From positions 1 through 64,000 of the forward strand of contig PNKZ01000016.1 of assembly GCA_013822735.1 (NCBI GenBank): a stretch of 64,000 nucleotides of DNA, written 5' to 3'. Source of the stretch: Pirellula sp. (GTDB lineage: Bacteria; Planctomycetota; Planctomycetia; Pirellulales; PNKZ01). Each line of letters opens with the position of its first letter. The stretch's first letter is position 1. The notes beneath the pieces are model-generated. The model had not been told where the DNA came from. It was given only the letters and a program-made list of their open reading frames with translations, and made no database searches. The position numbers were made by a program, and so were the translations under genes. Below are positions 8,972 through 55,630 of the stretch, piece by piece.

Positions 8972-11239
8972 TCAGTACGTCTTCGGTTCGAGGCTGTGTA
9001 AACGGAGCACTTGCTGGAGCTTGTTAACCGGCGGGTTGGCTCGCAGCACTTCCGGCGGCGTGAAGCTGTTCAACGTCCCGATGCCGTGCGGCGCCGTCGG
9101 ATGAAGGCTCAATTCGCGGAGTAAGTCGCTGTTCAACGCCGCCGATTCGGCGGGCGTATTGAAGACGTAAGGTCGAATCATGATGACGAGTTCGGTCCGC
9201 GTCCGATTCGATTGTTGGCGACGGAAGAAGTAACCGACGACCGGAAGTTTGCCGAGTACGGGCACTTCTTCACGAACGTCAAACAACTGCTCCTGAATGA
9301 GTCCGCCGATCGCCACGGCGAGACCGTCTTTGGCGACGATCGTGCCGGACACGACCGCCGTGTCGAGTACGTCGATCGGTTGCGAGATCGGTTGTCCCAA
9401 AGAGTTGATCAAGGGAATCGTCGCTCCGCCGGGAATCACGCGCGAGTTCTGCTGCGAGACGCGGAGCGTCACGCTACGGTCGGCGTTAATATTGGGAGTA
9501 ACCAACAAACCTTGCCCGACCTGGGTGAGTTGCGTCTGCGGCGACGGCTGAATCGACGTGGTCCCGCCGACGTTGGCGACGGCGCCGGACTGCGTGTAGC
9601 CGATCACGAGCGGCACTTGTTGGCCGATGAAGATATGGCTGACTTCGTTGTTGGCCGTGAGCAAGAGCGGCGTAGCGAGGTTCGTCGAACGATTATTATT
9701 TTCCAGCAACTGGATGCGAGCGCGGAAGTTCGCATCCACGTATTGAAACGTGAGGTCACGATCGGTCGGACCAGCCTGGCCGGGACCGAGCGTGGTGGGA
9801 AACGTGCTCCGCGGAAAGCCGAGGCCGGTCGTCTGGTCGTTGCGGCGCGCGGCGTCGGCGAGGACGTCCGTAGCCGGCGGAAAGATGTTGCCGGACGTGA
9901 AGCCGGCCGCGACCGTATTGCCGTTGGAAAATTCCCAATCGAAGATGCTCGTGAATTGATCGCCCAGGTCGAGCTGCATCACTTTGACTTCCAGCAACAC
10001 GAGCGGCGTCGGAACGTCCAGATTTTGGATCAGTTCCTCGATCCGGTTCATGATCTGCTCGTCGCCGGTGCGGACGACCACCTGATTGTTGCGGCGAATC
10101 ACCGTGACGTAGATGCGGGCACGTCGAGAGCGGAGCAGTTCATTAATCGCCGAGCGATCTTCGGGCGTGGCATCGTTACGAGCCTGTTCGAGTCGCTGGA
10201 TCTGTTCGGGAGTCAGATCGTCGAGGTTTTCGTTTTGGGCCTGTGTATTGAGCCCGTTGTTTTGGTTGCCGAAGAGCCCGGCGCCGAAGCCGCTCATTCC
10301 ACCGCCGCCAAATCCGCCGATGCCGCCGAGTCCGCCCAGGCCGCCGCCGATCCCGCCGCCTCCGATACCTCCGCCAATTCCGCCGCCGGCACCACCGAAT
10401 GCTCCCGTGCCGCCAATGCCGCCGGTGCCGCCCACGCCTCCGACGCCTCCGGATTGTCCGCCGCCGGTGAGACCGGATTGTTGATTGAAGGCCTGAATGA
10501 GCGCGTAGCGACTAAACCGCTGCTGAAGGTCCTGACTTGTGAGCGCGTCGCCTGCGAGAAATCCGGCGTAGTTGAGCTGTACGCGGTCGCCGAAGAGACT
10601 TTGAATCGCGATCGCAACGTCGACCGGGTTGGGATAGAGCAGGGTAAAGACCTTGGTTTTCTCTTCACGAAAACTGCCGATGTCGTTTTCGTACTCTTCC
10701 GTCGTGTAAATGCGAACGATGCCGCTGGCGCGATCCTGGCGATAGAAGAGTCCATTGGCCTTCGTCATCGCGTCGAGCGCAACCATGGCGTCGACGTCGC
10801 GTAGGTACAACGAAATAACGACGCTCGCCGCTTTAGCCGACGGAACAATCTTCAATCCGGATTGATCGCTCAAAACGCGCACCGCTTCGCCGAGCGGCAT
10901 TTCGCGGAACTCCACCAGCTCCATCGGCGTCGATGGCATCAGCATCTCGGACGCCGGGATCGTGCCTACCGCGCCCGCGGATGGCTCGGTTTCCGGGAGC
11001 GCTTCGGCGGGAACTCCGTCCGCAGGGATTTGATCGCCCGGCACTAAGAAGTCGACCGGCGGCGGAGGAATGAGCGGCACGTCTTGTGCGAGCGCCGCAG
11101 TGACGGAGGTGAAAAGAATCGACGCGAAGAGGATCGACGCCTGCGCTCGCAACAATGAGAACGACGACGTGCGCCGCGCGCGTTGCGCAACGGGGCCGTT
11201 CGATAGCGAAGCGGAAGTCAGAGTTGTTCGTCCGTCCAT
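8972..11239 (-). CDS. gspD: Secretin (GspD/PilQ-type outer-membrane channel)
   Basis: The protein, about 755 residues, should form the multimeric outer-membrane pore of the locus. A signal peptide ends near residue 52 (TAALAQ). N-domain modules follow: 105-180, containing SDQSGLKIVPSAKAASV, and 195-240. A Gly-rich stretch at roughly 258-322 comes next, then a further N-domain and the secretin barrel from about 412. The barrel has the typical motif VPVLGKLPVVGYFFR, followed by a TELVIMIRPYV strand. The ATG at 11239 is preferred over a GTG at 11248 because AGGTG sits 6 bases ahead of it. The PilP-like gene lies directly upstream. The Gly-rich insert is unusual in size. Confidence 0.93.
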   Translation of the reverse strand: MDGRTTLTSASLSNGPVAQRARRTSSFSLLRAQASILFASILFTSVTAALAQDVPLIPPPPVDFLVPGDQIPADGVPAEALPETEPSAGAVGTIPASEMLMPSTPMELVEFREMPLGEAVRVLSDQSGLKIVPSAKAASVVISLYLRDVDAMVALDAMTKANGLFYRQDRASGIVRIYTTEEYENDIGSFREEKTKVFTLLYPNPVDVAIAIQSLFGDRVQLNYAGFLAGDALTSQDLQQRFSRYALIQAFNQQSGLTGGGQSGGVGGVGGTGGIGGTGAFGGAGGGIGGGIGGGGIGGGLGGLGGIGGFGGGGMSGFGAGLFGNQNNGLNTQAQNENLDDLTPEQIQRLEQARNDATPEDRSAINELLRSRRARIYVTVIRRNNQVVVRTGDEQIMNRIEELIQNLDVPTPLVLLEVKVMQLDLGDQFTSIFDWEFSNGNTVAAGFTSGNIFPPATDVLADAARRNDQTTGLGFPRSTFPTTLGPGQAGPTDRDLTFQYVDANFRARIQLLENNNRSTNLATPLLLTANNEVSHIFIGQQVPLVIGYTQSGAVANVGGTTSIQPSPQTQLTQVGQGLLVTPNINADRSVTLRVSQQNSRVIPGGATIPLINSLGQPISQPIDVLDTAVVSGTIVAKDGLAVAIGGLIQEQLFDVREEVPVLGKLPVVGYFFRRQQSNRTRTELVIMIRPYVFNTPAESAALNSDLLRELSLHPTAPHGIGTLNSFTPPEVLRANPPVNKLQQVLRLHSLEPKTY

Positions 11240-11297
11240 GGACCACACCTAGAGACGCCGCTAATCCCTGCGGCCGTCGAACCACACGCCGAATTCG

Positions 11298-13141: not shown

Positions 13142-14662
13142 TTACCAAATCGTGACGGCGCTGAGAGCTTCTTTCACCGTGGTGAGCCCCTTGGTCAGCT
13201 TGTCGAACGTGTCGTCCGTGAGTTTGGGAATCCCCTTTTGCCGAGTGTGGGCGGCAATCTCCGCTTCTTCGGCGCCGTCGGCAATCTTGCGAGCAAGCTC
13301 CTCGTCGACCGGGAGAAGCTCAAACACTCCAAGTCGTCCCGCAAATCCTCGATTGGCGCAGTAAAGGCATCCGCCCGGCTCGAACACGGTCGCTCCGACC
13401 TGATCGGGGCGATCGAGCGCGACGGCTTCGGCCATTGTGAGTTCGCGCGGCTTCTGACAATGGCAGCAGAGCCGACGGACCAAACGTTGGGCGACCGCTA
13501 GACGAACCGTCGCCGCCGTGAGATAGCGGTCGACCCCCATATCGCTCAAACGCGTGATGACGCTGGCCGCGGAGTTGGTGTGCAACGTGCTCAACACCAA
13601 GTGCCCGGTGAGCGAGGCCTTGATGGCGACGTCGGCCGTTTCACGGTCGCGGATTTCGCCGATCATCACGATATCGGGATCGTGGCGAAGCACGCTGCGG
13701 AGCGCTTTACCGAAGCTCACTTTGTCGCCGGAATCGACTTCGACCTGTGCGACGCCGGGGATGCCGTATTCGATCGGGTCTTCGATCGTAATAATATTCC
13801 AATCATCTTGGGCAATAAGTTTGCGCAAGGCGGCGTACAGCGTCGTCGTCTTGCCGCTCCCGGTCGGACCCGTCAGCAAAATCATGCCGTGCGGTTTGGC
13901 AATGGCGTCTTCGAACAGAGTCAGATCGCGCTCGAACATTCCCAGCCGCTCGAGCGTTAGAGTTTCCGTTTGCAACGCCAGCAAACGAAGCGTCATGCGT
14001 TCGCCGTACTTCGTCGGCAACGTGGCGACACGAACATCGACGGAATGCCCCGTCTGGGCCGACTTATGCGAGAAGCGACCGTCTTGCGGGGCACGCTTCT
14101 CGGCGATGTCCATGCCCGACAAGACTTTGAAACGGCTGACGAGGCCCGTGTGCAAAGCGATGGGAAACTTGCGATAGCGTTCGAGTTGACCGTCGACGCG
14201 AAAACGGATTTGCACGCCGTCTTCATACGGATCGATATGCACGTCGGACGCCTGACGCACGATCGAGGCGTGGAGCAGCTCGTCGCAGAGACCGGTCGAG
14301 TCCTTGGCATCGCCGTCGGCTTGGCGCGGGTCGATGCGGCCGCGTGTTTGCACGATGACGGGCGAGGGGCTCTTGCCGTCGCCGAAAATCCGACAGAGCG
14401 CGCGCTTCAGCGATTCCGGCTCGGCGCGTTCGGCATGCACCGGTTGTTCGAATAGACGTTGCACGGCTTGCAACGCGCCGACGTCGTTCTCATCCACACA
14501 GGCGACGTACACCTGGCCGTTCATCACGGCAAACGGCAGCACCATGCGCCGCAGGGCCAAAGCGGGGGGAAGCCTCAGTGCAAACGCCGGGTCGACGCGG
14601 ACCTGGTCCATGTCGAGAGGAGGCTTCGTGACGTTGGTCGGCGAGTCCGGGGCAATGCTCAT
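13142..14662 (-). CDS. gspE: GspE/PilB-type assembly ATPase
   Basis: A cytoplasmic hexameric ATPase powering (pseudo)pilus extension, 506 residues. A short N1E-like domain precedes the core. ASDVHIDPYEDGVQIRFRVDG at about 138-158 is the N2E motif. Walker A GPTGSGKT is at 265-272, the Asp box includes IITIEDPIEY, Walker B is DIVMIGEIRD, and the His box is GHLVLSTLHTN. A four-Cys zinc module (CCHC then CLYC about 30 residues on) is present. The start overlaps the stop of the PilT-like gene as ATGA, indicating coupling. It resembles the second GspE at 53901-55622 but is clearly a separate paralogue. Confidence 0.95.
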   Translation of the reverse strand: MSIAPDSPTNVTKPPLDMDQVRVDPAFALRLPPALALRRMVLPFAVMNGQVYVACVDENDVGALQAVQRLFEQPVHAERAEPESLKRALCRIFGDGKSPSPVIVQTRGRIDPRQADGDAKDSTGLCDELLHASIVRQASDVHIDPYEDGVQIRFRVDGQLERYRKFPIALHTGLVSRFKVLSGMDIAEKRAPQDGRFSHKSAQTGHSVDVRVATLPTKYGERMTLRLLALQTETLTLERLGMFERDLTLFEDAIAKPHGMILLTGPTGSGKTTTLYAALRKLIAQDDWNIITIEDPIEYGIPGVAQVEVDSGDKVSFGKALRSVLRHDPDIVMIGEIRDRETADVAIKASLTGHLVLSTLHTNSAASVITRLSDMGVDRYLTAATVRLAVAQRLVRRLCCHCQKPRELTMAEAVALDRPDQVGATVFEPGGCLYCANRGFAGRLGVFELLPVDEELARKIADGAEEAEIAAHTRQKGIPKLTDDTFDKLTKGLTTVKEALSAVTIW

Positions 14663-15882
14663 TTGTACGCTCCGGCAGGACGGACATGGGGACCGCGAGG
14701 GGTTTGCATCCGTGCCAATCGGTCTCGTACGACGTTGGGATTGCGCGACATGGCCGCAGCCGTCTGCTCGCTAATCCATTTATTGAACCAAAGCTGCGCC
14801 AGGCTTTCGTCGGCGGTTTGCATGCCCGCGCCGCCGCCGGATTCCATCGCCGAATAAATCTGCGACGCCTTGCCGGACGCGATCAGATTGTTGACGGCTC
14901 CGGTTGCGGTAAGCACCTCGCTGACGACCACGCGGCGACGACGGGGCGTGCCGTCGGAAGCCGGCTCGAGCAAGCCGCGTTCGCCGTCGGCGACGACTAA
15001 GTGCTGCGTGATGATGCAGCGCAATACGAGCGAGAGTTGCCGGCGGATGCCGAATTGTTCTTCGGCGGGGAACACCGACACCAAGCGTTCGATCGTGCCG
15101 ACGCAGTCGCCGGCGTGCACCGTCGTGAAGACCAAGTGCCCCGTTTCGGCGGCGGTAATCGCGGTGCGAATCGTATTCAAATCGCGAATTTCGCCTACCA
15201 GAATGACGTCGGGGTCTTGCCGCAACGAGGCGACCAGCGCGTCATTGAAGCTGCCGGCGTCGAGGCCGACTTGTCGCTGGTTCACCAAGCTCATCGACGA
15301 GCGGTGCAGATACTCGATCGGATCTTCGATCGTGACGATGTGCGCGCGGCGCGTTTGGTTCACGCGGTCGATCAACGTGGCCAAGGTCGTGCTTTTGCCG
15401 GCACCGGTCGGGCCGGCGACGATCACCAATCCGTCGGGGAGCGTGCAAAGATCGTAAAGCGACTCCGGAAGCCCAAGATCTCCAAGCGTGCGAAAGCGAT
15501 CTTCCAGTCGCCGCAGCGCAATCGAGAGCGTTCCTTGTCGACGGAACACGTTAAAACGAAAGCGAACGCCGTCGGGCGCCGTCAGAGCGCCGTCGACCGA
15601 TCCGGTGGTATCCAAGGTCGAGGGGTCGAAGCCGCGCATCAAGACTTCGGACATCTGCTCGGTCGTTTCCGACGTGAGCACGCCATGCTTTTCTTGAGGC
15701 TCGAGGATTCCGTGCACGCGCAAATACGCCGGCAACCCCGGCGCGATGTGCAAGTCGGAGGCGTCGAGCAGTACGCACTGCTCCATCAAATGCGCGAGCA
15801 ACTTCTGCGCGCCATGCTCGACGGGCGGAAGCGTCGGCAATTCATCGTCACCGTTGGAGTTGGTCGAGCCGTTTAGATCCAT
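14659..15882 (-). CDS. pilT: PilT-like retraction ATPase
   Basis: A 407-residue ATPase of the PilT branch. The N-terminal domain contains ASDLHIAPGLPAYLRVHG. Walker A GPTGAGKS is at 157-164, then HIVTIEDPIEYLH, the Walker B region PDVILVGEIRDLNTIRTA, and the His box GHLVFTTVHAGD. The C-terminal segment VNNLIASGKASQIYSAME plus GMQTADESL matches the PilT-specific region that corresponds to AIRNLIREGK and GMQTLDQSL in classical PilT. The zinc module of GspE is absent. PilT normally drives pilus retraction, so this locus is not a plain type II secretion system. It overlaps gspE by 4 bases and the PilO/GspM gene by 10. Confidence 0.9.
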   Translation of the reverse strand: MDLNGSTNSNGDDELPTLPPVEHGAQKLLAHLMEQCVLLDASDLHIAPGLPAYLRVHGILEPQEKHGVLTSETTEQMSEVLMRGFDPSTLDTTGSVDGALTAPDGVRFRFNVFRRQGTLSIALRRLEDRFRTLGDLGLPESLYDLCTLPDGLVIVAGPTGAGKSTTLATLIDRVNQTRRAHIVTIEDPIEYLHRSSMSLVNQRQVGLDAGSFNDALVASLRQDPDVILVGEIRDLNTIRTAITAAETGHLVFTTVHAGDCVGTIERLVSVFPAEEQFGIRRQLSLVLRCIITQHLVVADGERGLLEPASDGTPRRRRVVVSEVLTATGAVNNLIASGKASQIYSAMESGGGAGMQTADESLAQLWFNKWISEQTAAAMSRNPNVVRDRLARMQTPRGPHVRPAGAYK

Positions 15883-16523
15883 AGCAACAAGGTCCAGCTA
15901 CGCCATTGGGTTTCGGTTCGACTCTCCGACATCGTGAGGCTGATCGGGATAATCGGCGAGCCGGAATCGCGCAACGCTTCGAGCGTTTCGAGCACATCGG
16001 AGTAACGCCCATAAAAGCGAATGCGCCACACCCGCTGCTCACCGGACGTATTCGAACTGACGACCGGCGGCGGCGAGAACGGATTCACGGTCGTGCCGGC
16101 CGGCGGTCCCGCGAGCGTTTTCAGGACGCCGTCGAACGAGGGTGAAAGGCGAGTTGACTCTCCTTGCAGTGCGGATTCTTCAAACGGAAACAGCCCCCGC
16201 TCCCAAAGCATTCCGGAAAGTTTGCGCAAAGCCTGGGTGCGCATGACGGGAGAAATCGAGCCGACGCTCGCTAATTCCTTGCGGCGCTCCATGAGTAAAG
16301 CCGTCGCCGTCTTGAGGTCGCTCGCTTCCTTTTGCATTTCGGCAAGCCTCATCCGCTGCATGCCGACGGCCTCGGGAGAGACGGCCGCGGCTTGGGCCGA
16401 CAGCAAGCCGGCGCGCGCCTCATCCAGAGTCTTCTGCTCGTTGAAGAACAGGAAATAGCCCAGGGCGATCAAGATCGCCGGCAGCAGCATCGCCAAAACG
16501 CGGTCGCGATTCGATTGTTCCAT
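15873..16523 (-). CDS. PilO/GspM-like inner-membrane protein
   Basis: A 216-residue bitopic protein. A short cytoplasmic N-terminus leads to one membrane helix (about 9-25, LAMLLPAILIALGYFLFF). A coiled-coil at about 28-90 and a small periplasmic alpha/beta domain with TTVNPFSPPPVV and VWRIRFYGRYSDVLETLEAL follow. The last motif is typical of PilO/GspM ferredoxin-like domains. Its place between the GspL/PilM-N gene and pilT fits the platform role. It overlaps pilT by 10 bases. Confidence 0.75.
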   Translation of the reverse strand: MEQSNRDRVLAMLLPAILIALGYFLFFNEQKTLDEARAGLLSAQAAAVSPEAVGMQRMRLAEMQKEASDLKTATALLMERRKELASVGSISPVMRTQALRKLSGMLWERGLFPFEESALQGESTRLSPSFDGVLKTLAGPPAGTTVNPFSPPPVVSSNTSGEQRVWRIRFYGRYSDVLETLEALRDSGSPIIPISLTMSESRTETQWRSWTLLLWI

Positions 16524-16547: not shown

Positions 16548-17963
16548 TTAGGGGCGACTCGCACCTACGACCGTATCACGGCGTTGCGCGGCGTTCGTGG
16601 CCGGCAATTGCTTCAATGAATTTAGGTCGCGCAAGCGGAGTTCGAATGTCCAGGGACCGCCGTCGTCGCTCAAATTGCGGGCCTGCTGCATCGGCGGCTC
16701 AACCGTCCAACCATGCCGCGCCAAGTCGGTCGACATCCCTTCGGCCAAAAGACTGATATGTTCAGGATGCATCGTCGTGCCAATGAGTTTTAGTTCCGCC
16801 CCCGTGCCGTCGATTCGTTGCAGAACCCAATCGTGGGTGGAATCTTCTGAAAGCCGACGCATGAGTTCGGCCAACCGACGGCGATGGGCGTCGAACACCT
16901 CTTCCGCATGACGCACCTCGTCCTTCAATTTCCCTTGCTCCTCCTGAGCCTTCTTTTGTTCGGCTTCCAGCTTGGTGATTTGCTGCGAAAGCCCGGCTAA
17001 TTCTTGCCCGGGCGCCTCGACACGGGCCCGTTCGGCGGCGATTCGACTATTTTCCGACGCAACCCACTTGGTGTGACCCCAGCAAATACCGAGCGCCGCA
17101 ACCCCGAGCACCGCCGCAACGGCCATGCGCTGCTGCTTCGTAAGCGGACGAACGAGCGGCGCCACGAGCGGAACCACCGGCGATTTTTCAGCCAGCGTGA
17201 GATTCCATGCGCCAAGCCAGCGACGCAGCAATGTTTCATCGGAAAGCGACAGATACTCGTCCGGTGCGGCGTCTACGGGGACTTCGCCCTCGGAGACGAG
17301 GGCCGTTACCTGCGCAGCGCCGGATTCCGTCCGCCAACCGTCGACCCCGGCGATCCAGGCGGAAGCCGCGCCGGAGTCGTCGACACGGCAGCGAGATACG
17401 AGCCCTTCACGAGCTACGACGCGCACCGTAGCTCCCGGCCAAAACTCGACGCGCCCCGTGAGTACGGCCGGAGGATTTTCTTCCAGGGCATGCGGCACGC
17501 CGCCGGGATGCAAAACACCTCCGAAGGTCCCCCCGGCCGTACGCACGGCGTCTTGAATTTGCTCCCGCACGGCGCCGACCATCGACGTCATCCAATAGGT
17601 TCGCTGGCCGGCCGATTCCGCTAAAGGCACGGCGGCGGTCGCCGCGTCGAACGCGCTCATCCCGGACAGCGGCTCGGCCTCAAAAGCCAGCGACTGCAGA
17701 AGCTCGGCCGGGCTCATACCGTGAATGGTGGCGGCGGGGAGCGAAAGCGTGTGCGTCCACACGTCTGCCGACAGCACGAACACGCGCCCCGGCTTACGAC
17801 GTTCGGAAGCCAACGCCATTTCCACCAACGTCGCTATTTCTTCGATGTGCGGCCGCTCGCGCACCGCCAACGATCGCGGCGTCGTCGACTTCGCGCCGTC
17901 GAAATCGGCGCGGATCAGACGATCGCGTGTCAGGACGACGAGTGTGGTGGAACGTGAGAACAT
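16548..17963 (-). CDS. gspL: GspL-like protein (PilM-PilN fusion architecture)
   Basis: This 471-residue protein combines a cytoplasmic actin-like domain (about 1-260, PilM/GspL type), a single membrane helix (about 280-298, MAVAAVLGVAALGICW) and a periplasmic part. The periplasmic part starts with a long coiled-coil (about 305-375, rich in Glu/Gln/Lys) and ends in a small domain with PWTFELRLRDLNS, like PilN. In type II secretion GspL recruits the GspE ATPase to the membrane. Its neighbours, PilO/GspM 24 bases downstream and pseudopilins upstream, support the assignment. Confidence 0.8.
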   Translation of the reverse strand: MFSRSTTLVVLTRDRLIRADFDGAKSTTPRSLAVRERPHIEEIATLVEMALASERRKPGRVFVLSADVWTHTLSLPAATIHGMSPAELLQSLAFEAEPLSGMSAFDAATAAVPLAESAGQRTYWMTSMVGAVREQIQDAVRTAGGTFGGVLHPGGVPHALEENPPAVLTGRVEFWPGATVRVVAREGLVSRCRVDDSGAASAWIAGVDGWRTESGAAQVTALVSEGEVPVDAAPDEYLSLSDETLLRRWLGAWNLTLAEKSPVVPLVAPLVRPLTKQQRMAVAAVLGVAALGICWGHTKWVASENSRIAAERARVEAPGQELAGLSQQITKLEAEQKKAQEEQGKLKDEVRHAEEVFDAHRRRLAELMRRLSEDSTHDWVLQRIDGTGAELKLIGTTMHPEHISLLAEGMSTDLARHGWTVEPPMQQARNLSDDGGPWTFELRLRDLNSLKQLPATNAAQRRDTVVGASRP

Positions 17964-18018: not shown

Positions 18019-18942
18019 TTAGGATCCGGAGGCAGCACCGGAATCGCCGGTGCCCGTGCCTGTACCTGTGCCGGTAGCGGCGGCGCGGAAAATGAGGATG
18101 TCGACGGTTTGCGAAGAGCCTGGGAGGACATTCACGCGGATCGTCGGTTCATAAACTGTCCCCGCGACCGAAGCGGCCGGCGTTACGTTATCGACGACGA
18201 TTGCGTAGCAGCCGGTCAACCACACGGGCGGCGACGCGCCCGGAGCGGCGGTCAGCGTGTAAACGCGATCCATACCTTCGACGACCGTGGCTTGCGGCGT
18301 ACCGGCGGCGGCGGGAGTGGAGATCGTTACCGTGGGAGTCGTCGAGCTGATCGAACTGATGTCGACGGCGTGCCCCTGTGCGTCGACGGCGTACAGCCGC
18401 ACGCGCAAATCGCGAGCCGTAAGCTGAGATACCGGAAGTCGACGAACGACGTCGTCGGCGGTTGCCGGAACTCCGTCCAATCCGTCGCTCGATATCAAGA
18501 GCAGGTCTTGCAAGTTGTCCAGCGCCATCTTCGAAGTGCCGGTCGAGTCGGCAAACGTGATTCGAGGGGAGCGATTCCAGCCGTCGAAGAGGATCGGCGA
18601 ATTGGCGGGCGCCGTCAGATACGGACCTTGCCAATGCGGGTCGGAAGTGGTGTTTACCGAGAGTTCGGCCAGCGTCGTCGGTAGGCGACGCATATCGGCC
18701 ATGAATCCCGAAATGGACGTCGAGCCCGCCGTTTGCGTCACGGTCAACAACGACTTCTGGACGGTATCGAGCGTTCGTTCGGTCGCTTCAATTCGCGACT
18801 TTTGCGCAACGGGCTCCAACGACTGCACGGCGATCGTCGTCAGCACGGCCATGATCGTCAAAACGACGAGCATTTCCAGCAACGTAAAGCCGGCACGGGC
18901 GTCGTGTGAGTTGTGCGCGATGGTTCGCAAAGAAGACATCAT
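18019..18942 (-). CDS. Pseudopilin with GFTLLE N-methylation signature
   Basis: A 307-residue prepilin-like protein. Basic leader to residue 17, then the cleavage/methylation site G-FTLLEMLVVLTIMAVLTTIAV with Glu at mature position 5. A helix and a beta-rich C-terminal part follow, with GWNRSPRITFADSTG and DDVVRRLPVSQLTARDLRVR, and a low-complexity Thr-Gly repeat tail near 293-300. It is far longer than typical minor pseudopilins (about 150-200). It lies 4 bases after the preceding pseudopilin gene. A second ATG is in frame at 18939. Among the locus pseudopilins only this one has the classical Phe at mature position 1. Confidence 0.85.
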   Translation of the reverse strand: MMSSLRTIAHNSHDARAGFTLLEMLVVLTIMAVLTTIAVQSLEPVAQKSRIEATERTLDTVQKSLLTVTQTAGSTSISGFMADMRRLPTTLAELSVNTTSDPHWQGPYLTAPANSPILFDGWNRSPRITFADSTGTSKMALDNLQDLLLISSDGLDGVPATADDVVRRLPVSQLTARDLRVRLYAVDAQGHAVDISSISSTTPTVTISTPAAAGTPQATVVEGMDRVYTLTAAPGASPPVWLTGCYAIVVDNVTPAASVAGTVYEPTIRVNVLPGSSQTVDILIFRAAATGTGTGTGTGDSGAASGS

Positions 18943-19748: not shown

Positions 19749-20537
19749 CTAGCTGTCGGCATCGCGTGAGTTGTTGTATTGCTCAATATTGGCGGTACGG
19801 CTCGTTCCATCGGGCAAGACGCAGCCGAGGAACGTGGCGGGAAACTTGTCCTGAGCGGCGGCCGTGGAACTGGGAATCATGTAAACGCACAGGACTCGAG
19901 CGTAGTGGTGCGTCGGATCGGCCGACTGCACCAGCGGCACTTCCGCGATGGCGGAGCCCCGCATGTTGGAGAAAGCCCCCAGCCCAAGCACGACAAACTC
20001 GTTGTTGGCCAACAAATCGGGATGACCCGTGTTGAGGCCGAACGCCTCGCGCAGCAACGTAGCCGCATTGGTTCTGGAGAGAACCTGAACCTTCCCTCCG
20101 GCCGCAAGGGGACGTGGCGTAGCATGTGCGACATTGGCAGCCAAGCTCTCGTCGGCGTCGTAGACGCCGTAGATCCCCGCTTCCGTTAGGCTCTGCGCCT
20201 GGACGGGAGTCAGCTCGATCGGTGTCGCCAAGAGCGGCGGCAATAACGAATGCAATTTGCCGAACGACGCGCCGCTCGTGTTCAGCAGCGAGTCCCACCC
20301 GGTCGGCTGAGCATCGAAACGGCCGTAGTACGTGCGCACCGCCCGGGAAACGTCGTCCGCCACCGTGGCATTGGTCGCGGCGTTGGTTTGATAGCCCAAG
20401 CCGGAAATGATGGGCACGATCAAGCCCGCCAGCACGACGAGAATTGCCAAAACGACGACGAGTTCCAACAACGTCAGCCCATCGCGGCGCTGTGACGCAG
20501 TCTTGCTCGATTTCAAGGCTATTCGGGTCATGATCAT
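19749..20537 (-). CDS. Large pseudopilin, GLTLLE family, paralogue 1
   Basis: A protein of about 262 residues. After a basic leader comes G-LTLLELVVVLAILVVLAGLIV. The helix continues with NAATNATVADDVSRAV, then QPTGWDSLL. The C-terminal half shares a signature with the three genes at 20832, 22694 and 24088: here VVLGLGAFSNMRG, VPLVQSADP and YARVLCVYMI. The start is ATG 20537 or 20531; the longer frame to 20603 adds residues with no leader character. It is closest to the 20832 gene. It has its own candidate promoter at 20675-20703. Confidence 0.85.
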   Translation of the reverse strand: MIMTRIALKSSKTASQRRDGLTLLELVVVLAILVVLAGLIVPIISGLGYQTNAATNATVADDVSRAVRTYYGRFDAQPTGWDSLLNTSGASFGKLHSLLPPLLATPIELTPVQAQSLTEAGIYGVYDADESLAANVAHATPRPLAAGGKVQVLSRTNAATLLREAFGLNTGHPDLLANNEFVVLGLGAFSNMRGSAIAEVPLVQSADPTHHYARVLCVYMIPSSTAAAQDKFPATFLGCVLPDGTSRTANIEQYNNSRDADS

Positions 20538-20674
20538 GAAGGGACGCACGTTGAAATAGCGGGCTCGTAAGCCACGCCCATACGCCAATCGGTGCCAGGG
20601 CAAACTCTCGGCGGCGAATGGGGAACGAACGCAACGACCAGCGACACTTCTACGCGTTCCCTAGGTTGAAAACA

Positions 20675-20703
20675 GTCTAATGATAACGAATCTCAATTTC
20701 AAC
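20675..20703 (-). promoter_or_regulatory. Candidate sigma70-type promoter
   Basis: On the minus strand TTGAAA (20703-20698), a 17-base spacer and TAGACT (20680-20675). It precedes the pseudopilin gene at 20537 by about 140 bases. The region is AT-rich compared with its surroundings. The spacer contains a sequence matching 11 of 14 positions of the 7-1-7 Fur consensus (20682-20696), which may be chance. Confidence 0.4.
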
Positions 20704-20778
20704 GCTCGTATCGACGTAATTCCAAATTCCGATAAATAAAGGAGTTACGCGAAAAAAGGTGCGGCCGTACGTCGTTAA

Positions 20779-20815
20779 ATGGGGGCGAAACTCGTGTTTG
20801 GAGCTTCGCCCCCAT
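20779..20815 (-). terminator. Hairpin downstream of pseudopilin gene
   Basis: Perfect 11-bp arms 20779-20789 and 20805-20815 (ATGGGGGCGAA/TTCGCCCCCAT) lie 17 bases beyond the stop of the 20832 gene. On the minus strand the hairpin is followed by only three T residues, so it is a partial intrinsic terminator or an attenuating/processing hairpin within the locus. Confidence 0.55.
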
Positions 20816-20831
20816 ATTGCAAATCCATCAA

Positions 20832-21647
20832 CTAGCTATTCGAGTTATTGAAGCTGTCGACGTTGCTCCTCAGGCTCGTGCCGTCGGGCAAGAAACTGCC
20901 GACGTACTCCGCTGGGAAAATGTCCGTCGCGCCGGCAATCGGGATCTTGTAGACCACGAGCACGCGGGCGTAGTACTGGACGGGGTTAGCCGATTGCACC
21001 AGCGGGATTTCCTGCATGGTCATCCCCTTAATGGAAGTCGGGCCGCCGAGTCCGGCGACGACGTATTCATAGTCGGTCAGGACCTGCTTGCCCCGTCCAT
21101 CCTTCCGGTACTGATTAATGCTGAACGCTTTGTCGATAAAGGTGCTGCCGTGTCCCGACGCAATCGGGTCTTTCACGAGCATGGCCACCTTCTTACCGCT
21201 CGATAGAAAGCGAAAGACGGTGCTGTTGTCGCTCGGGGGCGCAACGCGAGTTTCGTCCGCATCATGAAAGCCGGTGATTCCGGCAAGTTGCAAGCTTTGC
21301 GCTTGACCGGCGTCGAGTGCGACGATCTGTAGTTTCGGCTTCGTTACGTCGGTCGTTTGCGTCAGGCTGGGATGCAGCTTCGAAAAGTAGGCATCCGAAG
21401 CGGTGAGTAAAGAATCCCAGCCGCTCGGTTGTTTGTTGTAGCGGGCCTCGAATAGGCCGACAGACCGATTGACGTCCTCAACCACGCTGGCATTCGTCGC
21501 GGTATTTGCTTGCGAGGCGACACCGGAAAGTCGAGGGACAATCAACGCGGCAAGCGCCGCCAAAATTACGAGCACGACGACAAGCTCCAAGAGCGTGAGG
21601 CCGGCGCGGGCAGTCGCATTCGTCGGAAAAGAGCACTTACGTTGCAT
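20832..21647 (-). CDS. Large pseudopilin, GLTLLE family, paralogue 2
   Basis: A protein of 271 residues: leader of about 15, then G-LTLLELVVVLVILAALAALIV. The early helix has NTATNASVVEDVNRSV, then QPSGWDSLL, both nearly repeated in the 19749 paralogue. The shared C-terminal signature is VVAGLGGPTSIKG, IPLVQSANP and YYARVLVVYKI. The frame extends to 22697, but ATG 21647 places the leader correctly, and the upstream part is a different-frame shadow of the Cys-rich gene. It is preceded by 188 non-coding bases and followed by a hairpin. Confidence 0.87.
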   Translation of the reverse strand: MQRKCSFPTNATARAGLTLLELVVVLVILAALAALIVPRLSGVASQANTATNASVVEDVNRSVGLFEARYNKQPSGWDSLLTASDAYFSKLHPSLTQTTDVTKPKLQIVALDAGQAQSLQLAGITGFHDADETRVAPPSDNSTVFRFLSSGKKVAMLVKDPIASGHGSTFIDKAFSINQYRKDGRGKQVLTDYEYVVAGLGGPTSIKGMTMQEIPLVQSANPVQYYARVLVVYKIPIAGATDIFPAEYVGSFLPDGTSLRSNVDSFNNSNS

Positions 21648-21835
21648 CAGTAGGGTCCTTGAGTCGTTTAGTTCGATGAATTGCCGAGAAATGCAACTCG
21701 CGAACTCAGCGTGCGCTCTTGGCGCGCGCGAGTTGCGAGACCGCACTGACCAGAACGGCGCGAATGCGCTAGGCGCGCACCGGGCCGCCAAGGTGCGGAG
21801 GGCGATCCAGAAATGAAAGCGATAGTGATCGCTCT

Positions 21836-22501
21836 CTAAACGACTCGAGGCGGCGGGTCCGCCATCGACAGAGAAGCCGAAGTCAAAATGGATTGGGCGA
21901 TCGGCAGCAGCGGCTGAACCTGCTTCGACACAAGTTCGCGACCATCGAAGAAGACGATGGGTAAGCTGACGGGAACATTGAACCACTCGGCGGCCGCCAC
22001 GCCGCGGCAGCGAGCGGCAGCGAAGTACGAAATCCCACGCGGCTCTTGGTGCGGCTCCACGGCCCGCGGAGCTGATTCTTGCGTGACCGTCGAACAGCAC
22101 GACTTCGATACGACGCGCTGAGATGTGCAACAACCGTTTCGCACCGGCGAGCGCGTCGACTTCGGACGAACTTCCGACTCGGCGACAACATAAGCCGGCG
22201 GGGTAATATTGTTGCGGCGTGCCCAGGCCAGCTTCTCGGCGGGACTGTAACAACAACAGGACTTCCAGCACTGCTCGGCCGAATCGCAGCCGCAGCGATG
22301 ACCGCTGCAAGGATGCGGCATCGACGAACCGGACTCCGCTCCCATCGCGGCATAGGAGCAACTCGGCAACGGCAATCCGACGGCCTGGGCCAGGTAATTC
22401 AGGAGCGCAACTAGAGCGACGCCGCGGCGCAAGCCCGGCAATCGTCGTCGCAAAATCGTAGCGAACTTCGCCACGGTCGGGGTCGCTCCGCAAAGATACA
22501 C
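21836..22501 (-). CDS. Cys-rich exported protein inside the pseudopilin cluster
   Basis: A protein of about 221 residues of unknown function. The N-terminus is basic then hydrophobic (VALVALLNYLAQAVGLPLP), like a signal peptide or anchor. A dense Cys/His block at 65-84 has the pattern CxGHxCGCx5CWxxCCC followed by EKLAWA. Two further Cys pairs lie near 124-125 and 135-136. The C-terminal half has no recognised motif. It may bind metal or form disulfides (inference). It is on the same strand as, and between, two pseudopilin genes. The start is uncertain: GTG 22501 or GTG 22474, neither with a strong ribosome binding site. Confidence 0.65.
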   Translation of the reverse strand: MYLCGATPTVAKFATILRRRLPGLRRGVALVALLNYLAQAVGLPLPSCSYAAMGAESGSSMPHPCSGHRCGCDSAEQCWKSCCCYSPAEKLAWARRNNITPPAYVVAESEVRPKSTRSPVRNGCCTSQRVVSKSCCSTVTQESAPRAVEPHQEPRGISYFAAARCRGVAAAEWFNVPVSLPIVFFDGRELVSKQVQPLLPIAQSILTSASLSMADPPPRVV

Positions 22502-22636
22502 CGTGAAATAGTCGATTTAGCGTACACCAAGCCCTGTGACCGGTAAAGCTGCCGCAACCTGCGGCGTTCCCCGACCCCCTCGAAGTGCCGTGGCGTAAAC
22601 GAGCCCCTTCTTTACCGCACCTAGACTTACGAACGG

Positions 22637-22667
22637 GCCGAAGCGCCGCATGAGGCGGCGCTTCGGC
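22637..22667 (-). terminator. GC-rich hairpin after pseudopilin gene
   Basis: Perfect 13-bp arms 22637-22649 and 22655-22667 (GCCGAAGCGCCGC and its complement) with a 5-base loop begin 27 bases beyond the stop of the 22694 gene. There is no T-run on the minus strand, so it may stabilise or process the transcript rather than end it. Confidence 0.45.
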
Positions 22668-22693
22668 AATGTTCGGCCAGCGCGGAATTACGC

Positions 22694-23572
22694 TCATTGA
22701 TTACTTTGCGAAATCTCGTGAAAGCCGACGATGTCTTTTTCGGTGGTTTCCAACTCGTCGTCTTCCATGGCGACGGCGGCGATGAAGCGGGCACGCTCGC
22801 TGCGCTGCACTTCCACACCGTCGATCTGGAAGATGACGCCGACGCGACAGTATGTATTGGCGGGAGTCATTTGCTTGTTCTGCGGCACGGACATCGGCGC
22901 ATCTTGAATGACTTGTCCCACCATCGACGTGCGGGGACCGACGCCGAATACGACGAACTGCGCCGTCGGGTCGGCATCGCGAATAGTTTGCAGGAAGCTG
23001 GGGTTTGTCGATGCGATCGCGGTCAGATTGAGCTTGGCAAACTTGGCGCCCTGGGCCGCCGACGTCAGGTCGCCGTTGGAATCAAAAAGTTGCAATGCGT
23101 CAGCAGTCGGTGTCGCATTCGCGTAAGGACGCATGGTCGGATGAAAATCATTCGTCGCAATGACAGTGCCCGACATCTTTTGCAGCCGCAGAATGCCGAC
23201 GCGCCCGAGTGCTTTGAGTTGATCGTCGGTGAGGGATGCTGCGGTGACGAATCCGCCGAACACATTGCCGCCGTCCTTCGGCAGGTAAGTAGGAAACACA
23301 CTACCGTCGGTGAGCAGATCGAAGTTGTCCGGATAGCTGTAGTACGACGCTTGATACATCTGCACGGCCTTGGAAACTTCGCTAGTCTGCGTGGCATCCG
23401 TCGCCTTATGGGCCCGGCGGAGCAAGTTCGGCAATAGCGGAGCGACGATCCCGGCGACAGCCGCCAAAATGGCGAGCACGACGACCAATTCCAACAACGT
23501 CAGACCGCGACGGCGCCAATCTTGACACTTGCCGCACTGACCAACCTTGGCATTCGAAACTTTCCAACTCAT
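22694..23572 (-). CDS. Large pseudopilin, GLTLLE family, paralogue 3
   Basis: A protein of 292 residues. The leader of about 24 contains two Cys (QCGKCQDW) before RRRG-LTLLELVVVLAILAAVAGIVA. The mature region has ATDATQTSEVSKAV, then YPDNFDLL. The shared C-terminal signature is VVFGVGPRTSMVG, APMSV and TYCRVGVIFQI, closest to the 24088 gene. ATG 23572 is chosen because AGGAG lies 7 bases upstream; an ATG at 23578 sits too close to it. Its upstream region carries a promoter and palindromic operator candidate. The tail (about 265-292) is acidic. Confidence 0.87.
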   Translation of the reverse strand: MSWKVSNAKVGQCGKCQDWRRRGLTLLELVVVLAILAAVAGIVAPLLPNLLRRAHKATDATQTSEVSKAVQMYQASYYSYPDNFDLLTDGSVFPTYLPKDGGNVFGGFVTAASLTDDQLKALGRVGILRLQKMSGTVIATNDFHPTMRPYANATPTADALQLFDSNGDLTSAAQGAKFAKLNLTAIASTNPSFLQTIRDADPTAQFVVFGVGPRTSMVGQVIQDAPMSVPQNKQMTPANTYCRVGVIFQIDGVEVQRSERARFIAAVAMEDDELETTEKDIVGFHEISQSNQ

Positions 23573-23870
23573 ATCCATACTCCTAGGGCGAGGGGCCACC
23601 GTTGCCGTGTCACGCTGACGTTCGGTCGCGGCTGCTTGAGAAGCTAAGCCGTTAGGCAAACCCTGTTCCTGACGAGTATGAGAGGACGATCTTTACCGGT
23701 TGTAATCTTCCTGATCGAAGCCTTACGGATCCGTTAGCAACGAACGCGGCTCCGGCTGGTTTCTAAACTACTTCAGAAGGCGATCGCGATGACGGAATCG
23801 GCGCGCGCGGCGAAAAAAACGCCGCCGCTGAAGCCGTCGATCGCACTCGGCATGCACAACTTTGACTCAA

Positions 23871-23887
23871 ATGCAATTAAGTTGCAT
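23871..23887. promoter_or_regulatory. Palindromic operator candidate
   Basis: ATGCAA-TTAAG-TTGCAT is a 6-5-6 perfect inverted repeat. It starts at the expected transcription start (about 23888) of the promoter at 23895-23923, the usual place for a repressor site. The cognate regulator is unknown and not encoded nearby. Confidence 0.4.
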
Positions 23888-23894
23888 AAGACTC

Positions 23895-23923
23895 AGTATT
23901 GCCGATAGAAACCTCAAGGTCAA
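23895..23923 (-). promoter_or_regulatory. Sigma70-type promoter candidate for the 22694 pseudopilin
   Basis: Minus strand TTGACC (23923-23918), a 17-base spacer and AATACT (23900-23895). It lies just after the terminator hairpin of the upstream pseudopilin gene, so it would restart transcription. The predicted leader to the ATG at 23572 is about 315 bases. No gene was seen in the 515-base gap 23573-24087. Confidence 0.45.
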
Positions 23924-23937
23924 GTCGATTTAAAAGA

Positions 23938-23971
23938 CAGGGGCGCGACGGCAGAAGCCGTCGCGCCCCTG
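23938..23971 (-). terminator. Intrinsic terminator after the first pseudopilin gene
   Basis: A perfect 15-bp stem (23938-23952 and 23957-23971, CAGGGGCGCGACGGC and complement) with a 4-base loop is followed on the minus strand by TCTTTTAAAT. It lies 117 bases beyond the stop of the 24088 gene. It is the strongest hairpin-plus-T-run on this strand of the locus. Confidence 0.7.
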
Positions 23972-24087
23972 TTCCAACATCAAGCATGAAGAGTTGAGGG
24001 GTTCTTCATCCTGAGACCGCGAGGCGTCGCGACGTAAATCCATTCGTGTGGCGACGCTCGCAGCAATTCCATCCGAAAATCGCGCTA

Positions 24088-24972
24088 CTAGTTCAACGCG
24101 TTGCCGCTCTTATACAGGTCGAGGCGAGCGGTAACCTGACGTCCGCGATGGTCCGTGATCATCTTGAACTTCGCCGGAGCTCCGCTGCCGTAGATCTCGA
24201 AGATGGCCAAATACCGGCAATAGGTCGTGGCCGGATCGTCGGCGGCCATCGAGCTGATCGGGGCGCTTGTCATTACCTTACCGATCATGTTCGACTTCGG
24301 ACCGATGCCGAAGGCAATGAGATTACTACCTGTGGGAACTTGTCCCGCGGAAAGCTGCGTTGTGGATGCCGGTACGGCCGGGACGTAACCAGGATCCCCT
24401 TCGACTCCGACGGCAGGCGTGCCCGGAACGAAGGTAGCGCCGCCGGGATACACGGCGCCGCGAATGGCGGCGCCGATTCCGCTCGGATCGCCGCCGGTCG
24501 TCTTGACTCGTGCGACCACGAGACTACCGGAAGCGCTCTGGTTGTAGATGTCGGCGACGAGAGTTCCGCTGGAACTGGCGTCCGTCGCCGAGTCGTTGTG
24601 GCGATAGCCGTACTTAAAGCCGCCGTCGGTGAATGAGCGATACCAACTGCTGCCGGGGGCGCCGGGGCCAGGAACTGTAAACGGCTCTAAAAATGAGGCG
24701 GTGGTGCTCGACTGAAGCTTGGAATAGAGCGTGCCGCTTTCCGTAACTAGCATATCCAAAGACGGGTATTCGTTGGTGGACGACTTGAAAGTTTGCAGAA
24801 TCGTGCCGACATCGGCTTGCGTGCCTGCCGAGGTGGCGTGCTCGGCTTGGCCTTTCAAGAAGTCGAGTCGTGGAATCACCATCGCGGCCAGTACGGCGAC
24901 GATCGCCATCACGACCACCAATTCAATCAACGTAAGGCCGCGCCGTGCGGCCGAGTTCAATGTGAATTTCAT
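24088..24972 (-). CDS. Large pseudopilin, GLTLIE family, paralogue 4
   Basis: A protein of 294 residues: leader MKFTLNSAARRG, then LTLIELVVVMAIVAVLAAMVI. The mature region has ATSAGTQADVGTIL and EYPSLDML. A middle insertion at roughly 190-225 (GATFVPGTPAVGVEGDPG) is not seen in the paralogues. The shared C-terminal signature is IAFGIGPKSNMIG, APISS and TYCRYLAIFEI. ATG 24972 has GGAG 9 bases upstream; the frame runs on to 25059 but without leader character. It is the first gene of the locus and is separately terminated, suggesting high or independent expression. Confidence 0.87.
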   Translation of the reverse strand: MKFTLNSAARRGLTLIELVVVMAIVAVLAAMVIPRLDFLKGQAEHATSAGTQADVGTILQTFKSSTNEYPSLDMLVTESGTLYSKLQSSTTASFLEPFTVPGPGAPGSSWYRSFTDGGFKYGYRHNDSATDASSSGTLVADIYNQSASGSLVVARVKTTGGDPSGIGAAIRGAVYPGGATFVPGTPAVGVEGDPGYVPAVPASTTQLSAGQVPTGSNLIAFGIGPKSNMIGKVMTSAPISSMAADDPATTYCRYLAIFEIYGSGAPAKFKMITDHRGRQVTARLDLYKSGNALN

Positions 24973-25372: not shown

Positions 25373-25517
25373 GCGTCTTGATGATAATTCCCGTTAATTT
25401 ACTGCGTTTATCCCAAATCCGGGAATTCTAGCTGGGCAGGTTTACTCGTTGACTCATGCTTTTGATCTGGTCATAATCCGCTCTATCGAAACATCGTCTC
25501 AACAAAACCCCTGCCCA

Positions 25518-26723
25518 ATGCTCCCACTCATCCTTTGTTCTCTGGTTGCAGCCGCGCCGACCGGCGAATGGTCGGGGTTTCGGGGTGAGAGCGGCAATGT
25601 CGCCCATGTCGAGAGTCTTCCGCTTACCTGGAGCGACGAGCAGGGAATCGCCTGGCAATCGCCCCTCTCCGGCTACGGGCAATCGACCCCCGTCATTCAC
25701 GGATCGAAGGTTTTCGTTACTTCGGTGGACGGGCCCGAGAAGGAGCGGGGCATCACGGACTGCTTCGATCTGAAGACCGGTGCCAAGCAATGGAGCGCCG
25801 TGGTGCCCGCCTCGCAGAACGTCCCTTCCAGCGATATGGTCAGCCGTGGCGCGCCGACACCCTGCGTCGATGCACGCGCAGTCTACGTGTTTTTTGAAAG
25901 CGGCGACGTCGCTGCTTTCACGCACGACGGCCGCCAACTCTGGCATCGCAAGTTGGCGGAAGAGTACGGTAAGTATCAAGGCAATCACGGTCTCGGCGGA
26001 TCACTCGCCCAATCCGCCGGCGCTCTCTACTTGCTCGTCGATCATGATGGTCCTTCGTATCTGCTCGCCATGGATAAAGCGACGGGAAAAAACCTCTGGA
26101 AGGTCGAGCGGCCCTCGAAGATCTCGTGGAGTTCGCCCCTGTTTGTCGACGGCTCGAAACCGTTTGTCGTCATTAGTTCCAGCGGTTCCGTCGAAGCCTA
26201 CGACGCCGACGCCGGCAAGCAGCTGTGGTCGCTCCCGGGCGTCGAGGGGAATACGGTCGCCTCGCCGACCGTCACCTCCGACTTGCTGATTATCGGCTCG
26301 AGCGATCCCGGCCAAACCATCGCACTGCGCAAGCCCGCGGGCGATGCTTCGGCGAGGCCCGAGGTCGTCTGGCGATTGAAATCGCTCTCCGCTTCGTTTA
26401 GTTCCCCGCTCGCTTATCAAGGGCATGTGTACGTCGTCAACAAGAGCGGCGTCGCAGCTTGCGTCGATGCCGAGTCGGGCGATACGCTGTGGAGTGAGCG
26501 GCTTCCCGGGTCCTGTTGGGCCACGGCGGTGGGAGCCTTGAATCGAGTCTATTTCTTTGGAAAAGACGGCGTCACTACCGTCGTCTCGTCCGGTTCGAAG
26601 TTGGAACGCCTCGCCGAAAACCGTCTCTCGATCGACGAGGGACGCGTGTACGGCACGGCCGCGGTGCCCGGCGCATTGTTGTTGCGCACCGGTAAGAAGC
26701 TCATCTGTGTCGGTAAACCCTAA
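25518..26723 (+). CDS. PQQ-like beta-propeller repeat protein
   Basis: A 401-residue exported or periplasmic protein. The N-terminus MLPLILCSLVAAA is a short signal-like segment. Propeller blades of the PQQ/BamB type follow, marked by repeated motifs such as DLKTGAKQW, DKATGKNLW, DADAGKQLW and DAESGDTLW. The opening EWSGFRGESGNV matches the WPQFRGP motif common in planctomycete outer-membrane propellers. ATG 25518 is chosen since residues before it in the longer frame are not signal-like. The function is unknown; it is more likely a scaffold or binding protein than a dehydrogenase, as no catalytic domain is attached. Confidence 0.85.
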   Translation: MLPLILCSLVAAAPTGEWSGFRGESGNVAHVESLPLTWSDEQGIAWQSPLSGYGQSTPVIHGSKVFVTSVDGPEKERGITDCFDLKTGAKQWSAVVPASQNVPSSDMVSRGAPTPCVDARAVYVFFESGDVAAFTHDGRQLWHRKLAEEYGKYQGNHGLGGSLAQSAGALYLLVDHDGPSYLLAMDKATGKNLWKVERPSKISWSSPLFVDGSKPFVVISSSGSVEAYDADAGKQLWSLPGVEGNTVASPTVTSDLLIIGSSDPGQTIALRKPAGDASARPEVVWRLKSLSASFSSPLAYQGHVYVVNKSGVAACVDAESGDTLWSERLPGSCWATAVGALNRVYFFGKDGVTTVVSSGSKLERLAENRLSIDEGRVYGTAAVPGALLLRTGKKLICVGKP

Positions 26724-26788
26724 GCTGAGTGCTTCGCAAGTCGTTTGGTTGCTACTCTTCCTTCCTTTCATTGCTTAGGACTTGCTCC

Positions 26789-27817
26789 ATGGTTTGCTTA
26801 GCTTCCTTCCTGCGGCGCTGCGCCCTGTTCGCAGTAGCGAACGCTGCGTTGGCTTTCGTAACTTGCAATCACGCACAATCCGTTGCGGCGGAACGGGACG
26901 CGGCCCCGGCAATTCCGCCGTTGCCGGAACCGGTCGCCAGTTTTGGCGCGACGGTCGCCGACGATTGGCTCTATGTGTACAGCGGCCACATCGGCAAGGC
27001 GCACGCCCACTCGAAGAAGAACCTTTCGCAGAAGTTCCAACGTGTCCGTTTGAACTCGGCGGGCGAGTGGGAATCGCTTCCCGCAGGACCCGGTCTGCAA
27101 AGCGTGGCATTGGTTCATTACGGCAATAACATTTACCGCGTCGGCGGATTGTCGGCCCTGAACGAACCGGGCGAAGAAGAACAACTGGTCTCCGTCGCCG
27201 ACTTCCAGCGCTACGATCCGCGGGCCAAAAAGTGGACTGCCTTGCAGCCGTTGCCGGAAGGACGTTCGTCGCACGACGCCGTCGTAGTCGACGGCAAGTT
27301 GTATGTTCTCGGCGGTTGGAATCTCGGCAAAGAAGAGACGTGGCACAAGCACGGCTTGGTGCTCGATCTGACGAAGGCCGACGCGCAGTGGGCGCAACTC
27401 CCCGAACAACCGTTCCAACGTCGCGCGCTGGGCGTCGCCGTGACGGGCGATCGGATCTATGCCGTCGGCGGCATGAACTCCGACGGCGAACCGTCGACCG
27501 ACGTCCACTACTTCGATTGGAAAAAGCAAACCTGGGCGCAAGGTCCGAATCTCCCCGGCAAAGACATGGCGGGATTCGGCACTTCGGCCGTCGGCATCGA
27601 CGGCAAGCTCTTCGCTACGACCTTCGACGGCAACGTCTATCAGCTCAGCGACGACGGCGCGGCCTGGAACTCGGTCGGCAAGTTGCAAGTTCCGCGTTTC
27701 ATGCACCGCATCCTGCCGGGCGTCGGCCGGTCGCTCGTCGTCGTAGGCGGTGCGTCGCACAAGAAGGGGCATCTCGACTCGATCGAGAGCTTCCCGCTCG
27801 TTGCGGATCGGCCGTAA
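26789..27817 (+). CDS. Kelch-repeat exported protein
   Basis: A 342-residue protein with a signal peptide (hydrophobic 11-27, ending near VAAE). Its body is built of kelch-type blades: NNIYRVGGL, GKLYVLGGW, DRIYAVGGM and RSLVVVGGA, each with trailing Trp motifs (AKKWTALQPLP, KQTWAQGPNLP). Such beta-propellers bind carbohydrates or proteins, and one group is N-acetylneuraminate epimerase. No enzymatic assignment is possible. ATG 26789 has AGGA 9 bases upstream. It follows the propeller gene after 65 bases and precedes the small HemP-like gene by 33 bases. Confidence 0.8.
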   Translation: MVCLASFLRRCALFAVANAALAFVTCNHAQSVAAERDAAPAIPPLPEPVASFGATVADDWLYVYSGHIGKAHAHSKKNLSQKFQRVRLNSAGEWESLPAGPGLQSVALVHYGNNIYRVGGLSALNEPGEEEQLVSVADFQRYDPRAKKWTALQPLPEGRSSHDAVVVDGKLYVLGGWNLGKEETWHKHGLVLDLTKADAQWAQLPEQPFQRRALGVAVTGDRIYAVGGMNSDGEPSTDVHYFDWKKQTWAQGPNLPGKDMAGFGTSAVGIDGKLFATTFDGNVYQLSDDGAAWNSVGKLQVPRFMHRILPGVGRSLVVVGGASHKKGHLDSIESFPLVADRP

Positions 27818-55622: not shown

Positions 55623-55630
55623 GAACTGCT

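Follow-up and report, generated by a model that had tools for sequence, protein, structure and literature searches.

A planctomycete family of large type IV prepilins with a shared C-terminal signature, encoded beside a dedicated filament machine

Results

The pilin genes and their family

We analyzed positions 1 to 64,000 of contig PNKZ01000016.1 from Pirellula sp. (GenBank assembly GCA_013822735.1), a 64-kb stretch referred to here as the window. Its minus strand carries four genes for large pilin-like proteins (P4 to P1), followed by two further pilins (P5 and P6) and by the genes of a filament-building machine. Four more members of the same protein family (O1 to O4) are dispersed elsewhere in the genome. 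P1 to P4 almost certainly represent a new planctomycete family of genuine type IV prepilins that serve the machine whose genes lie immediately downstream (18939-7383). The four genes are the following:

24088..24972, minus strand: P4, family pilin of 294 amino acids (O3/P4 clade); prepilin motif RRGLTLIELVVVMAI; signature IAFGIGPKSNMIG...PIS...YCRYLAIFEI; C-terminal profile match; placed by the tree
22694..23572, minus strand: P3, family pilin of 292 amino acids (O1/P3 clade); signature VVFGVGPRTSMVG...PMS...YCRVGVIFQI; profile match 2.6e-33; placed by the tree
20832..21647, minus strand: P2, family pilin of 271 amino acids (P1/P2 clade); signature; comparison with P1; AlphaFold2 model m64fbf3b7a42d, predicted local distance difference test score (pLDDT) 92, predicted template modeling score (pTM) 0.84
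19749..20531, minus strand: P1, family pilin of 260 amino acids (P1/P2 clade); 46% identity to P2 over 259 amino acids; placed by the tree

Translation likely starts at 20531 (or 20537) in P1, 21647 in P2, 23572 (or 23578) in P3 and 24972 in P4. All four products carry a prepilin leader of type III along with the helix GLTL(L/I)ELVVV, and the family possesses the features that characterize the prepilin superfamily, namely a short basic leader, the motif G|[FL]TLxE with Glu5 and a hydrophobic helix. The original prediction described four pilin-like genes sharing a late signature, hydrophobic-G-[LVI]-G-x3-[SN]-[MI]-x-G, then P-[LMI]-[VS], then Y-[AC]-R-x3-hydrophobic-[YF]-x-I. This description was confirmed, as both the prepilin N terminus and the exact C-terminal signature are present in P1 to P4; the six-frame translation of the window contains four matches to the signature, compared with 0 in 20 shuffled windows. 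The signature is absent from P5, P6 and the pilins of the window's own type II secretion system (T2SS).

These proteins had also been thought to lie outside the named families, and our searches agree, since Pfam and NCBIfam recognize their N terminus only. Among 56 family members, 55 match only N_methyl in Pfam. The C-terminal 79 to 96 residues gave zero matches in NCBIfam and nothing above threshold in Pfam, where two stray sub-threshold matches (E values of 0.018 and 0.075) concerned one member each. The GspG and ComGC models cover just the N-terminal ~50 to 70 residues of the family, with scores of 22.8 to 36.3 bits against a cut-off of 88.85 (GspG, TIGR01710), and none of the four was placed in GspG or PilA as a protein lacking a distinct C terminus. 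PF08334 (T2SSG) did not match P1 to P4. The T2SSK profile matched none of the family members tested, in which, unlike the GspK type, Glu5 is present and invariant. Searching the PDB sequences with the family profile retrieved only the N-terminal helix of pilins, besides chance matches. The C-terminal domain is part of an unnamed family, found in neither Pfam nor NCBIfam. Its signature core holds over the 56 members from many genomes, with G199 (P2 numbering) conserved in >90% and T18, E21, D78, G201, P215, Y226 and R228 invariant. Helix 1 and the signature are highly conserved, and conservation drops to its lowest at residues 158 to 190, beside an insert described below.

Predicted structure

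The AlphaFold2 model of P2, built from a 56-row alignment, predicts a lollipop fold in which a helix 1 of ~50 residues (19-70) bears a beta-sheet head. The model places an insert (106-157) after helix 1 and before the C-terminal strands (193-199, 230-236 and 247-252), which are followed by a C-terminal helix (259-268); no structural match to GspK was listed. Modeled alone, the head reached a pLDDT of 94 and a pTM of 0.90. For the full model, the five best rows of the structural aligner were all type IV pilins, with weak Z scores of 3.0 to 3.3, and Foldseek returned nothing at E <= 0.001 for the full model or for the head alone. These models suggest that the head of P2 is unusual, although missing matches do not prove a new fold. 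In the model the signature sits on the C-terminal strands and their connecting loops, which argues that it forms a predicted structural core rather than an evident catalytic motif.

Paralogues and their history

A search of the genome with P2, followed by one with a profile built from the C termini of eight members, gave eight family copies. Thus, P1 to P4 are real paralogues, but the original count of four missed the four further members elsewhere in the genome. Their description as tandem genes also stands only in part, the arrangement being loose. Intergenic gaps in the pilin cluster measure 95 to 516 bp, with the exception of the 1,047 bp that separate P2 from P3 and contain an unrelated cysteine-rich gene (21836-22501).

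In a maximum-likelihood tree of 73 family members, the eight copies of this genome fall into eight separate ortholog groups. One larger clade unites O1 with P3, another O3 with P4 (100/98) and a third P1 with P2 (100/99), and O2 lies among sequences of distantly related families in the phylum. The ortholog groups are common to other genera, and those of O2 and O3 reach distant families of the phylum. Of the two pairs proposed originally, P1/P2 is supported by its identity and its shared clade; the TYCR pair P3/P4 is not. BLAST aligned P3 with P4 only over the helix and a 49-residue stretch around the signature, whereas P3 and O1 share 38% identity over 259 amino acids, and the closest paralogue of P4 is O3. 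A sister relationship between P3 and P4 was ruled out by BLAST, the tree and the approximately unbiased (AU) test, in which the P3 and P4 groups were held together (p-AU 0.0005). An exclusive, recent P1/P2 pair was likewise rejected in the topology test because both genes have orthologs in other genera.

P1 and P2 are the only local pair, and their duplication predates the genera; judged by the tree, the paralogues are old ortholog groups and not recent tandem copies. Consequently, the stepwise duplication proposed originally, as two local pairs, is wrong in its second half (P3/P4) and, for its first (P1/P2), too recent. In the related genome G004, the corresponding cluster (locus L065) contains six family genes, O3 and O4 types among them. 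Relocation is therefore as much a part of the history as tandem duplication, and since O3- and O4-type genes stand inside that locus, the orphans O1 to O4 of the present genome are probably relocated former locus members.

The downstream machine locus

The pilin cluster belongs to a complete and separate secretin/ATPase machine that the original prediction overlooked. The following genes continue from P1:

18947..19654, minus strand: P5, GspG-like pilin without the signature; T2SSG (PF08334) 18.6 bits, under the cut-off of 21; position after the family pilins conserved
18019..18939, minus strand: P6, pilin without the signature; N_methyl 31.2 bits; position conserved
16548..17963, minus strand: GspL-like (PilM-PilN-like) inner-membrane protein of 471 amino acids; C-terminal half resembles PilN of the solved type IV pilus machine (E value of 4e-6)
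15873..16523, minus strand: PilO/GspM-like protein, by position and anatomy only (N-terminal hydrophobic segment, coiled region); homologues at the same place
14659..15882, minus strand: PilT-type retraction ATPase; TIGR01420 (pilT_fam) 367.6 bits, cut-off 319.1; solved PilT, E value of 7e-78
13142..14662, minus strand: PilB/GspE-type assembly ATPase with MshEN domain; T2SSE 409.8 bits
11881..13098, minus strand: PilC/GspF-type platform protein; T2SSF 181.5 bits
11298..11873, minus strand: probable GspC/PilP-like periplasmic protein; signal-like N terminus, short C-terminal domain, conserved between GspF and the secretin
8972..11248, minus strand: secretin; Secretin (PF00263) 111.5 bits
7383..8912, minus strand: TPR protein with a lipobox-like start (LIVCAGC); weak TPR matches; conserved at the locus end in L066 and L067

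The GspL-like protein has a single hydrophobic segment at about residues 283 to 300, as read from its sequence. Neither Pfam nor NCBIfam matched the PilO/GspM-like protein, and no family match was found for the GspC/PilP-like protein, which is assigned by position and anatomy only. The assembly ATPase scored 485 bits with the GspE model (cut-off 630) and 470 bits with the PilB model (cut-off 675.65), both under the equivalog cut-offs. With a PilT-type and a PilB-type ATPase, PilC and a secretin, the locus carries the gene set of a type IVa pilus (T4aP). As for a T2SS, neither the GspE equivalog score nor the GspG/H/I/J/K set was found, and only P5 is weakly T2SSG-like at this locus.

The same gene order recurs in many loci of distant planctomycetes: one to six family pilins, two more pilins, the GspL/PilM-N-like gene, the PilO/GspM-like gene, usually PilT, then PilB/GspE, PilC/GspF, the GspC/PilP-like gene, the secretin and the TPR lipoprotein. 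Minimal loci (e.g., L078, L079 and L103) have a single family pilin ahead of P5- and P6-like pilins; the family is therefore a core part and its expansion secondary. The genome also contains several other ATPase and secretin loci in addition to the separate T2SS, and this machine is therefore an additional one. Prepilin peptidase (Peptidase_A24) genes are present elsewhere in the genome. No type IV filament (TFF) machine gene was found within the 13 to 14 kb surrounding O1 to O4, which must therefore use a machine in trans. We read the locus as encoding a dedicated, previously unannotated filament-building machine.

Distribution and co-occurrence

The C-terminal profile was applied to 40 relatives (the window's own genome included) and to 392 genomes over the phylum, in which the family was present in 9 and 20 genomes, respectively. 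By the profile, copy numbers are seven to eight in congeners, five to six in two other genera of the taxonomic family and one to four in a handful of further families within the order. Taking the GspL-like protein as the marker for the machine, 8 of the 9 family-positive relatives carry it, versus 0 of the 31 negative ones (Fisher 1e-7, uncorrected for kinship). In the phylum sample the corresponding figures (E < 1e-10) are 14/20 pilin-bearing genomes and 3/372 others (Fisher 1e-18, likewise uncorrected). The family and its machine are patchy in planctomycetes. A taxon search with the O3 subgroup as its single query retrieved planctomycete metagenome-assembled genomes (MAGs) only, plus one genome labeled Lentisphaeria and one unnamed. 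A family pilin, further pilin genes and a GspL-like gene stand together (L097) in a MAG that bears the label Lentisphaeria, taken here as given.

Neighboring genes and elements

Two further features lie within the pilin cluster:

21836..22501, minus strand: cysteine-rich protein, hydrophobic segment at the N terminus, encoded between P3 and P2; motif P-[FY]-P-C-x3-H-x-C-G-C...CW...CCC...K-x2-W-A...PP conserved in six genomes
23937..23972, minus strand: strong terminator-like hairpin between P4 and P3; near-perfect, 16 pairs (13 G-C), short T-rich tail

The cysteine-rich gene is single copy in the genome, and its product has no Pfam or NCBIfam match. The gene stays beside P2 orthologs, even at a stand-alone locus in G011 (L069:6617-7084). 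The hairpin suggests that P4 and P3 may be separate transcription units, which would allow separate expression of the paralogues. A promoter-like site (23923-23895) directly follows the hairpin. In the region, terminator-like sites are not more numerous than in shuffles, and neither are promoter-like matches near P4, P3 and P1.

Divergent from the locus, a PQQ beta-propeller and a Kelch beta-propeller protein are encoded at 25449-27817 (plus strand). In G003 and G004 both genes remain beside the locus, as does the PQQ gene in G002 as far as that stretch was read; Kelch homologues occur near the locus in G011 and G187 as well. The second, canonical T2SS lies on the opposite (plus) strand at 53793-63037 and comprises GspE, F, G, H, a minor pilin, J, K and a PilM-like protein, with its secretin at ~67.3-67.8 kb of the contig.

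Discussion

Overall, we consider it probable that the family supplies accessory pilins to a dedicated type IV filament system that is often retractable, in which each paralogue would carry a different head. For the pilins themselves, we lean slightly toward accessory, ligand-presenting subunits over the main structural subunit, given their size, their insert, the radiation in copy number and the precedent of modular pilins (PMC8179133). Judging by the PilT gene, a retractable surface filament appears to be a likelier product of this genome's locus than a system of pure protein secretion. Under this model, a prepilin peptidase encoded elsewhere would process the family proteins, which would then be inserted via helix 1 into a filament whose core subunit may be the GspG-like P5. 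The conserved signature would form the core of the head (three strands and the C-terminal helix), and the variable middle of each paralogue would be displayed along the filament or at its tip, to bind ligands outside the cell that differ between paralogues (polymers, surfaces or cargo). Where PilT is present, extension and retraction of the filament would proceed through the secretin; loci where PilT was not detected may operate more like a secretion pseudopilus.

It is important to consider several points that weigh against this interpretation. Ligand binding by the head is a guess, and VIA-align of the head alone against the PDB gave a Z score of 2.1 at best. Retraction is not universal, as PilT was not detected in the homologous loci L077, L078, L082 and L103. 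The GspL-like gene was undetectable in six pilin-bearing genomes of the phylum sample, some of them fragmented and some with divergent machines. In single-copy loci, the family itself could be the main subunit.

This last point leads to the possible, if doubtful, explanation that the family proteins are alternative major pilins, with the filament consisting mostly of one or several of them and the paralogues giving different or heteropolymeric fibers. Heteropolymeric type IV pili are known (PMC10628169), helix 1 is like that of GspG and ComGC, and in the minimal loci the single family gene directly precedes the P5-P6 pair; however, P5 is more GspG-like than the family, and a size of 260 to 294 amino acids with a bulky insert is more typical of minor or modular pilins (PMC8179133). 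A T2SS-like system seems rather unlikely. Here the family proteins would act as pseudopilins that select cargo for a periplasmic piston, with every paralogue helping to export its own set of enzymes, and planctomycetes do export many enzymes (PMC11131199). The GspL/GspM-like order after the pilins, the GspG-like P5, the secretin and the failure to detect PilT in some loci are consistent with it. On the contrary, PilT stands above its cut-off inside the window's locus, whereas it is described as lost in T2SS (PMC6668835), and a separate canonical T2SS (E, F, G, H, J, K) occupies 53.8-61.5 kb of the window.

A competence pilus for DNA uptake, with DNA-binding minor pilins, is improbable. TFF systems frequently serve this function (PMC6668835) and both PilT and a secretin are present at the locus, but no competence gene was recognized beside it in the stretches examined, nor any DNA-binding feature in the head. 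Still harder to sustain is the explanation that the signature is generic pilin beta-sheet sequence and P1 to P4 are ordinary GspG or PilA paralogues. The model does remain pilin-like in fold, and by our own reading of the sequence the YPxGxDSL after the helix resembles the YPT..GL region of GspG. Nevertheless, the GspG models reach only ~50 to 65 N-terminal residues (23 to 36 bits versus a cut-off of 89), the C terminus has no family match above threshold, and neither P5 and P6 nor the window's T2SS pilins have the signature.

The reading as accessory pilins of a filament machine can be set beside several known systems. The family has its prepilin leader and helix 1, together with the short stretch that follows, in common with GspG/T2SSG (TIGR01710, PF08334), but it is about twice as long, lacks the T2SSG C-terminal domain and has its own C-terminal signature. 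A pilin helix with a large head is also found in modular minor pilins such as S. sanguinis PilB/PilC, CofB and GspK, the latter with an extra domain inserted in the pilin sheet (PMC8179133); the family head, in contrast, has no sequence match to any of these, and no structural match was found. PilT, the PilB-type ATPase, PilC/GspF, the secretin and the PilN-like domain recall the T4aP machine (PilB/PilT/PilC/PilM-N-O-P-Q; PMC6668835). Unlike in T4aP, PilM and PilN of this locus seem fused as in GspL, the ATPase falls under both the PilB and the GspE cut-offs, and this genome has ten pilins (P5, P6 and eight family members), mostly of the new family.

Planctomycetes also possess crateriform structures with 12-nm pili-like fibers, which are envelope-spanning complexes whose fibers are of unknown composition and which bind dextran (PMC5394234). 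They share the phylum with the family, but craters are reported in many planctomycetes whereas the family occurs in 20 of 392 sampled genomes. Because of this patchiness, we mention these structures as a product of the locus only as speculation.

The fold class and the machine parts are of known kinds; the pilin family is new to Pfam and NCBIfam. Among open-license papers we found no description of the locus, and planctomycetes are not mentioned in the text of a survey of type IV filaments (PMC6668835). More tentatively, the locus may represent a planctomycete-specific class of machine in which a radiating set of as many as eight large pilins, with a head fold absent from the PDB, makes up or decorates the fiber and serves as an interchangeable ligand-binding display. 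Planctomycetes take up macromolecules by an unknown route (PMC5394234), and a diagnostic pilin family with a diagnostic GspL-like partner provides concrete genes for studies of planctomycete fibers. The paralogues probably expose distinct binding surfaces on a filament of the cell envelope, and their radiation is a natural experiment on how a single filament machine acquires multiple functions by exchanging heads.

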